A stretch of 54,238 bases of DNA from Dehalococcoidia bacterium (GTDB lineage: Bacteria > Chloroflexota > Dehalococcoidia > GIF9 > AB-539-J10), in the NCBI GenBank assembly GCA_021162545.1, contig JAGGYM010000063.1, forward strand, positions 1 through 54,238. The letters run 5' to 3'. Shown here piece after piece: positions 52,069 to 54,238 of the stretch (positions are counted from its first letter, which is position 1; each line of letters opens with the position of its first letter). A program made the position numbers and the translations under genes. The notes beneath the pieces were generated by a model. It had not been told where the DNA came from. It worked only from the letters and a program-made list of their open reading frames with translations, and made no database searches.

Positions 52069-52581
52069 TTATGGCATTACAGCCAGCATACCAACCAGCT
52101 TTTTCCTGAGGGCCTTCAAGTTAACCACGTCTTCACCGTTATATTGCAACAGCGAGGATAAAGCCTCCCGGTCTCCACAACAACGATACCTCTCCCACAG
52201 CCTTATCGCATCCAATCCTCCTATATCCTGCAGTTGCCTCGGAATTCCCAATTGCCGCTCCACCGATTTAAGCCCCCCATACAGATTAACTGCCCAGCAA
52301 TCGTACATTAAATCACGATGATAAAACTCTTTACCCAGGTCCACCCCCAGGTGAGCGAGAACAAAGGGGAAATCAAATCTACCTCCATTGTAAGTATAAA
52401 TCGAGTCCACCTTCTCCAGGGCTCGCAGGAGATTGTCTCCGGTCACGTCATCGCCCACTAGCTGAATGAGCTCGCTGCCACCATTGCCACAGAGATAAAT
52501 GCCAATCACGGTAATGTAACTGTCACTTACAGACAGCCCCGTGGTTTCAATATCGAAGTAAGCATCAAGCTGGCTTTTCAT
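52069..52581 (-). CDS. RNase H-like 3'-5' exonuclease domain protein (YprB-like)
   Basis: A 170-residue protein of the DEDD exonuclease/RNase H-like superfamily. The first acidic pair is in AYFDIETTGLSVSD (DxE), the second near YTYNGGRFDFPFVLAHLG, and the last Asp in YNGEDVVNLKAL, which together supply the four metal-binding acids. GGLKSVERQLGIPR is a helical linker typical of YprB-like proteins. ATG at 52581 is preferred over 52608 since the domain begins almost at once; both have a weak AGGA. It is the first gene of a minus-strand run of three. The nucleic-acid substrate is unknown. Confidence 0.82.
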   Translation of the reverse strand: MKSQLDAYFDIETTGLSVSDSYITVIGIYLCGNGGSELIQLVGDDVTGDNLLRALEKVDSIYTYNGGRFDFPFVLAHLGVDLGKEFYHRDLMYDCWAVNLYGGLKSVERQLGIPRQLQDIGGLDAIRLWERYRCCGDREALSSLLQYNGEDVVNLKALRKKLVGMLAVMP

Positions 52582-52661
52582 ATTTCCTTTTCTCTGAAGC
52601 ATTCCCATGTGTCCTGTAATCAGGGAAAAACCAGTCGCCAGACCACAGGAAACTATATCTC

Positions 52662-52736
52662 TGGAGCCAGCGATAGGATTCGAACCTACGACCGGCGGTT
52701 TACGAAACCGCTGCTCTACCCCTGAGCTACGCTGGC
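52662..52736 (-). tRNA. tRNA-Thr (anticodon CGT), CCA encoded
   Basis: A 72-base cloverleaf from 52736 down to 52665, followed by an encoded CCA (52664-52662). The acceptor stem GCCAGCG pairs with CGCTGGC, the anticodon stem-loop is GCGGTTTCGTAAACCGC with CGT in the loop, and the T arm has GGTTCGAATCC. The discriminator is T. The tRNA-Ala in this window has no encoded CCA. Confidence 0.95.
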
Positions 52737-52750
52737 ATGCAAGCTAAATC

Positions 52751-52905
52751 CTAGTTTTTACAGGATGTTATGTCTACTGTTGGCGTTAAATTGGCGTTAT
52801 TTTTTCTAGACACCCCTGCCGGTAGCACCTCATCAAGTAGCACCATAGCATCTTCTTGCATCCCTTGGATTATATGCGAGTAGACATCCATTGTAAAGGC
52901 CACGT
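52751..52905 (-). pseudogene. C-terminal remnant of a tyrosine recombinase (integrase)
   Basis: The minus strand reads about 51 codons ending at a TAG (52753-52751). The peptide contains VAFTMDVYSHIIQGMQEDA, the conserved end of phage-type integrases with the catalytic tyrosine in DVYSH. The rest of the gene is absent: upstream the frame runs into the repeat of the adjacent insertion sequence and meets a stop, so the gene has been cut. The missing N-terminal part may lie beyond the right edge of the window. It ends 14 bases before the 5' end of tRNA-Thr on the same strand. Two copies of TGGCGTTA (52781-52788, 52792-52799) lie in its last codons. Confidence 0.75.
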
Positions 52906-52969
52906 ATTCACTCATCTAAAATGTTACCGAGAGGGGTATGATTCACTCAGATAAAAATGTTACTGGGGG
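52906..52969 (+). repeat. Left-end tandem repeat pair of the IS
   Basis: Two units begin 35 bases apart, at 52906 (ATTCACTCATCTAAAATGTT then ACCG) and 52941 (ATTCACTCAGATAAAAATGT then TACTG). They share the core ATTCACTCA-n-ATAAAA(A)TGTTAC. Both recur inverted at the right end. Confidence 0.85.
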
Positions 52970-52975
52970 AGGATC

Positions 52976-54181
52976 ATGCCGAGCAACGAAAGGATGAGCA
53001 TAAACGAACGAAGAAAATATCTGAAACTAGTTCTATCGAGGTATATCCAATCAGGGCGAAAGGAACGTAGCCAATTGCTGACCGAAATGGGAGAGGTAAC
53101 TGGACTACACCGTAAGAGCCTGATACGGCTAATGAATCTGCCGAGTTTGGAGCGTGCTCCCAGGAAGGTGCGGCTCAAAGCAAGGCGGTATGGGCTGGCC
53201 GTGGCTGAGGTGGTACAGATAGTCTGGGAGAGCCTGGACTATATATGTGCCGAGCGGCTAACACCAGCGCTACTGGACACCGCGCAACAGCTTGCGAAGT
53301 GGGAGGAACTCACTCTCAGCTCAGAGGTCGAAGATAAGCTGAGTTCTATCAGCCGGGCGACAGTGCAACGGCTGTTAAGACGTTTCCAGCGGGATACCCC
53401 GAAACTACCCCGACGCAAGTCCCAACCCTCCAACCGTCTCTTGCGGGATGTGCCCATGGAGCGGTTAAGCTGGCAGACTACGGTGCCGGGCAACTTTGAG
53501 ACTGACCTGGTGCATCATTGCGGAGCGGTAGCGGCCGGTGATTATATTCACACCTTACAGCTAGTGGATATTGCTACAGGCTGGAGTGAGAGAGTAGCGA
53601 TCTGGGGGCGCAGCCAGCAAACCATGGTAAAGGGTTTTAAGAAGGTTCAGGAGCGCTTGCCGTTCCCCATTACTCACCTGCATCCTGACAACGGCAGTGA
53701 ATTTTTCAATGACCATCTCATTCGTTATTTCGGAGAGAAAATAATCGGACTGCGCCTAAGCCGCAGCCGCCCTTACCACAAGAACGATAACCGCTTTGTT
53801 GAGCAGAAGAATAGTACCCTGGTGCGGGCTTATGTGGGATATGATCGGCTGGATCAGGCCTACCAGTATGCTGCTCTGAACGCTCTTTATGAGCAGCTCT
53901 GGCTCTACTACAACCTCTTCCAGCCAGTCATGCACCTGGTGGGCAAGGAGATAGTGGGCAGCCGTCTGCATCGTAAATGGGACCGGGCTCAGACGCCTTA
54001 CCAGCGCCTGCTTGCCAGCGGAATACTTTCTCCCGAACAGCAACAGAGACTGGCAAAATTGCATGCCCAAACAAACCCAAGGCAGCTACGTAGGGATATC
54101 TACCAGATAGTCGAACAACTCTGGTGCCACCCACTGGACAAAGTAAATCAAAGAAAGGAGACGGCGGCATTAGCCCGGTAA
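52976..54181 (+). CDS. DDE integrase-core transposase
   Basis: A 401-residue transposase. The N-terminal part (1-150) is helical and basic with helix-turn-helix-like stretches (RSQLLTEMGEVTGLHRKSLIRLM, SISRATVQRLLRRF). The rve-type catalytic core carries the acidic triad Asp177 (FETDLVHHCG), Asp238 (LHPDNGSEFF) and Glu276 (NRFVEQKNS), with spacing D-60-D-37-E. The C-terminal part is typical of this class (YYNLFQPVMHLVGKEIVGSRLHRKWDRAQTPYQRLL). GGGGGAGG lies upstream. The gene is full length, and its stop codon falls inside the inner right repeat. Confidence 0.9.
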   Translation: MPSNERMSINERRKYLKLVLSRYIQSGRKERSQLLTEMGEVTGLHRKSLIRLMNLPSLERAPRKVRLKARRYGLAVAEVVQIVWESLDYICAERLTPALLDTAQQLAKWEELTLSSEVEDKLSSISRATVQRLLRRFQRDTPKLPRRKSQPSNRLLRDVPMERLSWQTTVPGNFETDLVHHCGAVAAGDYIHTLQLVDIATGWSERVAIWGRSQQTMVKGFKKVQERLPFPITHLHPDNGSEFFNDHLIRYFGEKIIGLRLSRSRPYHKNDNRFVEQKNSTLVRAYVGYDRLDQAYQYAALNALYEQLWLYYNLFQPVMHLVGKEIVGSRLHRKWDRAQTPYQRLLASGILSPEQQQRLAKLHAQTNPRQLRRDIYQIVEQLWCHPLDKVNQRKETAALAR

Positions 54182-54234
54182 CATTCCTATTTGAGTGAAT
54201 GTCTCTTCTCCGGTAACATTTTTATTTGAGTTGA
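54175..54234 (-). repeat. Right-end tandem repeat pair of the IS
   Basis: Two units start 35 bases apart, at 54175 (CCGGTAACATTCCTATTTGA then GTGAAT) and 54210 (CCGGTAACATTTTTATTTGA then GTTGA). They are the inverse complements of the left-end units, with the same period. Confidence 0.85.
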
Positions 54235-54238
54235 CACG

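Follow-up and report, generated by a model that had tools for sequence, protein, structure and literature searches.

A satellite-like element end beside tRNA-Thr in a Dehalococcoidia genome, with an integrase 3' end most likely retained as a predicted host tRNA promoter

The sequence from position 52,662 to the insertion sequence (IS) at the right edge of the window is read here as the near end of an integrated element, a small satellite-like one, in which the 3' end of the integrase gene has most likely been retained as a predicted promoter of the host tRNA-Thr. The window is the whole 54,238-nt stretch analysed and makes up the entire contig C1 of a 1.388-Mb genome in 67 contigs that is 99.76% complete. 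Mobile elements that enter tRNA genes usually rebuild the 3' half of the gene and leave its promoter untouched. At this locus and its relatives, sequence comparison documents a duplicated tRNA 5' half, the element ends, their geometry, conserved promoter-like hexamers and stranded native promoters. The start of the feature is best set at 52,662 because the 5' half of the tRNA is itself the attachment core. The features are as follows.

52069..52608, minus strand: chromosomal flank gene on the 3' side of the tRNA, encoding an RNase H-like exonuclease (profile match PF13482)
52662..52736, minus strand: intact tRNA-Thr(CGT), found by ARAGORN; sole full-length genome match among the matches listed
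52700..52706, minus strand: anticodon loop (7 nt), putative strand-exchange region
52700..52737, minus strand: attachment core, equal to the tRNA 5' half (positions 1 to ~37, plus one upstream base); 38/38 identity with G000:C41:2514-2551
52741..52748, minus strand: element-end motif TTTAGCTT, inverse of the AAGCTAAA that adjoins the far core at C41 and C44
52751..52902, minus strand: integrase C-terminal fragment with the catalytic tyrosine (DVYSH), starting VAFTMDVYSHIIQGMQEDAMVLLDEVLPAG; approximately residues 343-384 of a 384-aa relative; stop codon at 52751-52753
52781-52788 and 52792-52799, minus strand: two arm-type repeats TAACGCCA(A) that overlap the integrase coding sequence at its 3' end
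52869..52874, minus strand: predicted -10 box of the tRNA promoter, TATAAT, spaced 17 nt from the -35 box; lies in codons H-I-I and 132 nt 5' of the tRNA
52892..52897, minus strand: predicted -35 box of the tRNA promoter, TTTACA, within catalytic-motif codons F-T
52903..54238, plus strand: insertion sequence ending the contig; intact transposase ORF 52976-54181, 401 aa, with an rve core

The earlier note had recognized a C-terminal integrase fragment with its catalytic tyrosine, ending at the IS beside tRNA-Thr, and this identification is borne out. The fragment shares 70.7% identity with the last 41 residues of a full-length 384-aa tyrosine integrase (E 1e-11), and the homology breaks off exactly at the left end of the IS, 52903. 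The full-length protein, which carries PF00589 and a SAM-like domain, is encoded directly upstream of tRNA-Thr at G044:C9 (DIKK01000022.1, Dehalococcoidia UBA5620). Only a C-terminal fragment of this integrase is found in the present genome; in relatives it is full-length (PF00589). Because the arm-type repeats overlap the 3' coding end, the last residues of the integrase, N-A-N-L-T-P, are partly set by the repeat.

The note had also proposed that the window holds the edge of a former integrative element continuing beyond it, and had suggested looking for a second copy of part of tRNA-Thr as the far attachment site. Both are borne out by contig C41, where positions 2514-2551 repeat the tRNA-Thr 5' half and ARAGORN finds no tRNA. 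Below 2514, the element features of C41 are the arm repeats of the window integrase end (C41:2378-2395) and AAGCTAAA; this is the only end of the cargo visible in this genome. On the other side of the core are a lipoprotein-like gene, TypA, AroH, DAHP synthase and RibF, named by the analyst from their sequences. In the relative G039, tRNA-Thr has AroH-DAHP-RibF on its 5' side at a distance of ~5 kb and homologs of three window genes on its 3' side, and there is no second 5' half; C41 therefore carries the former upstream neighbourhood of the window tRNA-Thr. C1 and C41 together present the arrangement by which Islander recognizes a 5' fragment (an intact tRNA at one end and a 5' fragment upstream in the same orientation), with the two ends on separate contigs and the interval itself unseen here. 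The suggestion that the tRNA belongs to the element applies to its 5' half, which is read as the element-supplied core on account of the copy at the far end. One edge of the anticodon loop is where the core copy begins, and the opposite edge is where the 3'-half copies of other genomes stop, from which we infer that strand exchange takes place within the loop. Another end of this kind occurs in the genome at tRNA-Arg(CCT) on C35, where the integrase scrap breaks off at residue 344. On C44, an element end is accompanied by a displaced 5' half resembling that of tRNA-Arg and by one more integrase end, an arrangement that resembles a section of a tandem array.

The IS abuts the integrase fragment, as the earlier note described, and the interruption of the gene by a simple insertion is unproven because no integrase N-terminus was found. 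Searches of the 1.39-Mb assembly with PF00589 and the relative's integrase as queries do not find this N-terminus, which the note had expected just past the IS. When the rest of the genome is searched for an intact integrase, PF00589 yields just two Xer-like genes (C38 and C19), and the relative's integrase has no match in this genome at E 1e-20. In relatives, integrase remnants without an IS end at the same place as the window fragment. The IS runs to the final base of C1, its end sequences are found again at six further contig ends of this genome, and a partial copy (89%) lies on C20; there are at least four near-identical copies, which break the assembly. Target duplications of 5 bp are seen by eye at two sites, C60+C49 (TGGAT) and C5+C52 (TAGAT). 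Joining C1 through the IS to a right neighbour was rejected, as the remaining right flank, C53, fits neither C1 nor C58. The transposase is only IS481-like, scoring 51 bits with NCBIfam transpos_IS481 against a cut-off of 224.

The position of the integrase on the 5' side of the tRNA, correctly described in the earlier note, had been called atypical; it is instead the rule of the whole integrase family. Among 17 named loci in genome contigs, the integrase ends no more than 90 bp upstream of a co-directional tRNA in 16, the exception being L079 with its tRNA 1.3 kb away. The tRNAs at the named loci are Thr CGT, Leu TAA, Trp CCA, Lys CTT, Arg CCT and Ser TGA, and nine kinds are seen overall with this one family (Thr, Leu, Trp, Lys, Phe, Ser and three Arg). 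Homologs at E<=1e-20 occur in 171 of 393 genomes across the class. A list of 30 loci comprises 20 with a co-directional downstream tRNA, 7 in the conventional opposite orientation and 3 without a tRNA on the stretch.

Direct repeats of a tRNA 5' half on one contig bound 11 distinct elements and lie 2.0-16.7 kb apart, two of them with one mismatch; this count comes from sets of 17 and 22 loci, in which many others are too short or end before a visible far site. A 5'-half copy 6.7 kb away at G007:C17 was not counted, since it lacks this integrase and both copies are similar upstream. All six elements sampled for cargo carry primase, helicase or replication-initiation genes, one carries a terminase small subunit and one a major capsid protein. 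Because of this cargo, the elements resemble phage satellites; a search of viral contigs gives no match. At G044:C9:29562-53300 (L054, L055), a tandem array lies by tRNA-Thr, with one full-length integrase followed by several 5'-half cores, each with an integrase C-terminal scrap; cargo differs between the cores, and core identity drops outward. At G180:C21:25316-38436 (partly L150), tRNA-Phe has an element of this type on its 5' side and a copy of tRNA positions 26-74 lying 5 kb away on its 3' side, which suggests a second element of conventional direction sharing the same anticodon region. At G314:C20 (L115), tRNA-Thr is flanked on one side by an integrase scrap that sits in the 5'-side position and bears the promoter, and on the other by an integrase from a related family in the conventional orientation.

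The predicted promoter is a sigma70-type pair, TTTACN-N17-TATAAT, located ~100-150 nt upstream of the tRNA inside codons A-F-T-M-D-x-Y-S-H-I-I and pointing at the tRNA. All 26 distinct loci recovered by motif similarity, with four base differences allowed, have TATAAT and TTTAC[A/C/T] at a spacing of 17 nt, and nearby wobble bases vary. Since remnants are mostly found through their C-terminal end, which biases their breakpoints, near ends were also ascertained by arm repeats alone, with 42 distinct places read (G068:C207 and G156:C85 left out of 44). The pair is present in 17 of 18 such ends that have a co-directional tRNA within 200 nt, the exception being L144 (the same locus as L102), and in only 1 of the 24 other arm sites, that one also being a near end followed by tRNA-like sequence. 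The 18 include 11 ends with truncated integrases, every one of which keeps the pair (L066 and L140 are cut by contig ends). The embedded pair is absent from all seven conventional-orientation relatives and from all six distant relatives with 5' geometry, and of 14 close relatives that share the geometry, three (L099, L100, L102) lack it and gave no other candidate promoter.

Other promoter candidates lie closer to the tRNA. In the distant relatives L107 and L109, upstream of tRNA-Ser(CGA), TTGCC[T/G]-N18-TATAAT is located between the arm repeats and the tRNA, 9 nt from the latter, and is read as an alternative way of supplying a promoter. At G010:C3, an 11-codon integrase trace has lost the embedded pair and TAGACA-N17-TAAAAT lies 11 nt from the tRNA, while G031 has both an embedded and a proximal pair. 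The window has a weaker proximal candidate, TAGACA-N17-TAGGAT, matching 9/12, so tRNA-Thr may have two promoters here. Proximal sequences at the near ends mostly score 6-8 of 12. When a 260-bp end is shuffled, a promoter scoring 10/12 or better arises in only 0.5-4% of trials. The 5' leader predicted from the embedded pair is ~125 nt, which is long for a tRNA.

The arm repeats at both element ends also allow another reading, in which the integrase 3' end persists as an attachment site on which full-length integrases act in trans to mobilise the element, and the promoter drives element cargo through the core in an integron-like manner rather than the tRNA. The G044 array fits this reading in having internal cores followed by integrase remnants, the three nearest the tRNA with the promoter; its two outermost remnants, which do not adjoin a tRNA, have lost the -10 box, which agrees with a lost need for a tRNA promoter in what are two cases only. 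Arm sites alone would not protect sequence as far as the -35 box, yet integrase breakpoints cluster just upstream of it. Thirteen lie in the stretch from residue 320 to 345 and none from 346 to the C-terminal end, in the numbering of the best-matching relative and with contig-edge cuts excluded; G010 is an exception found later. Clustering of breakpoints is by itself weak evidence because remnants are mostly found via their C-terminal end. Mobilisation in trans is a possible but unlikely reason for retention, and a tRNA promoter is the preferred one.

Synonymous positions of the hexamers in the catalytic-motif codons show a constraint. Phe346 is TTT in 18/20 genes, His353 is CAT in 19/21 and Ile354 is ATA in 18/19, versus frequencies of 0.40, 0.43 and 0.39 elsewhere in the genes; P for each codon is between 5e-7 and 8e-6 under an assumption of gene independence, and the genes are not independent. 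On a tree of 22 genes with 201 conserved columns, I354 ranks first in fewest changes (five tied) and F346 and H353 rank sixth (four tied), placing all three within the nine least-changing columns. When the four motif-lacking genes are removed, which makes a circular subset, H353 and I354 are the sole unchanged columns of 222. The codons of D88, Q225, K229 and F236 are as invariant as I354, without explanation.

These constrained sites also bear on a reading in which transcripts from the integrase's own promoter read through into the tRNA, as stated for archaeal pTN3-like elements (PMC8371274), and the hexamers are incidental. The integrase of intact close relatives is indeed co-directional with the tRNA and ends 19-85 bp from it, but remnants lacking the integrase start and its promoter still adjoin a tRNA, which together with the constraint on the hexamers makes read-through improbable. 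Least probable is that an ordinary decayed integrase at a tRNA island was broken by the IS, its fragment being functionless and its codon bias due to chance or codon usage: the IS does abut the fragment, integrase remnants are common and some other integrase codons are equally biased, but the hexamers persist in all 11 truncated near ends found by arm repeats, their synonymous positions are among the nine least variable columns with full-length genes included, and shuffled ends seldom produce a comparable promoter.

The tRNA loses its own promoter because the element brings the 5' half. Candidate native promoters, with a -10 box 7-10 nt upstream of the stranded 5' half, are found at five of 12 far ends (G000, L150, L151, L156, L158); of the remaining seven, three face another element (L072, L149/L074, L155) and four are ambiguous (L075, L079, L157, L160). 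Among 21 tRNA-Thr(CGT) loci, 16 have no integrase trace, and most of those have a -10 box ~8-11 nt upstream. Apart from the copy adjoining the element, no second full-length tRNA-Phe (G180, G156) or tRNA-Trp (G216) was found at >=90% identity. A point against the preferred reading is that, where ACG is read by tRNA-Thr(TGT), tRNA-Thr(CGT) may be dispensable.

The proposed mechanism, whose consequence for tRNA expression the earlier note had missed, is as follows. The element would enter the tRNA gene at the anticodon loop and replace its 5' half, leaving the native promoter at the far end (C41), where it would face a useless 5' half. The element end would rebuild the tRNA and bring a new promoter, TTTACA-N17-TATAAT, which lies inside the catalytic-tyrosine codons of the integrase and would read via the integrase 3' end into the tRNA. 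After decay of the element, the last part of the integrase gene would be kept as the host tRNA promoter; in the window, everything upstream of the kept part is now IS. Transcription from the hexamers is predicted from their sequence, and we infer that selection for tRNA expression is the reason for their retention.

Promoter donation is known from SXT, which integrates at the 5' end of a protein gene, prfC. For tRNA genes, 5'-half integration and promoter donation are known but rare. The Islander account gives a 5' tDNA fragment in 159 of 3919 islands and an anticodon-centred site in 2083 (PMC4383910), and that of KplE1 intS puts SIT and OD shapes together at <8% of 1273 (PMC2951348). As these sources describe them, Islander 5'-fragment islands and SIT pairs share with the present elements a tyrosine integrase, an anticodon-centred site, a displaced 5' fragment and an upstream, co-directional integrase; they differ in that here one integrase family occurs at nine tRNA kinds with a promoter embedded in its catalytic codons. 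Archaeal pTN3-like integrases likewise use a tRNA 5' half as attB and cut the tRNA from its original promoter, after which the promoter of the integrase is said to drive the tRNA (PMC8371274, PMC5495485), and such integration is described as 'seldomly encountered in bacteria' (PMC8371274). In those accounts the integrase is disrupted on integration, with attP inside its gene, whereas in intact relatives here the full-length gene ends before the core and the promoter is internal, near the integrase 3' end. The islands described for Dehalococcoides have 3' fragments (PMC2764846).

The elements resemble PICI-like phage satellites in size (6-17 kb) and in combining an integrase with primase/helicase genes, with a terminase small subunit or capsid gene in two of six. 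Methylophilaceae tycheposons similarly have a tyrosine recombinase beside a tRNA and carry cargo, and no promoter donation is seen in this account of them (PMC10872708). Literature searches on internal or embedded promoters, on truncated-integrase remnants and on such Dehalococcoidia elements, with subscription papers mostly outside their scope, gave no description of the present arrangement. Two features look new: the overprinting of a promoter on an active site, and the persistence of that promoter in remnants.

The integrase gene probably carries a second, overlapping message, in which the codons around the catalytic tyrosine double as a promoter for the host tRNA beheaded by the element. 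The element would make its own end unremovable, because deleting the integrase 3' end would silence a single-copy tRNA (tRNA-Phe or tRNA-Trp in some hosts), and decayed elements would become permanent tRNA promoters. If true, this would be a form of host dependence on an element without any toxin and would explain why C-terminal scraps of integrases last beside tRNAs. It would also be a clear example of how a regulatory element can be overprinted on the active-site codons of an enzyme. For annotators, such 'pseudogene' scraps may be essential promoters.
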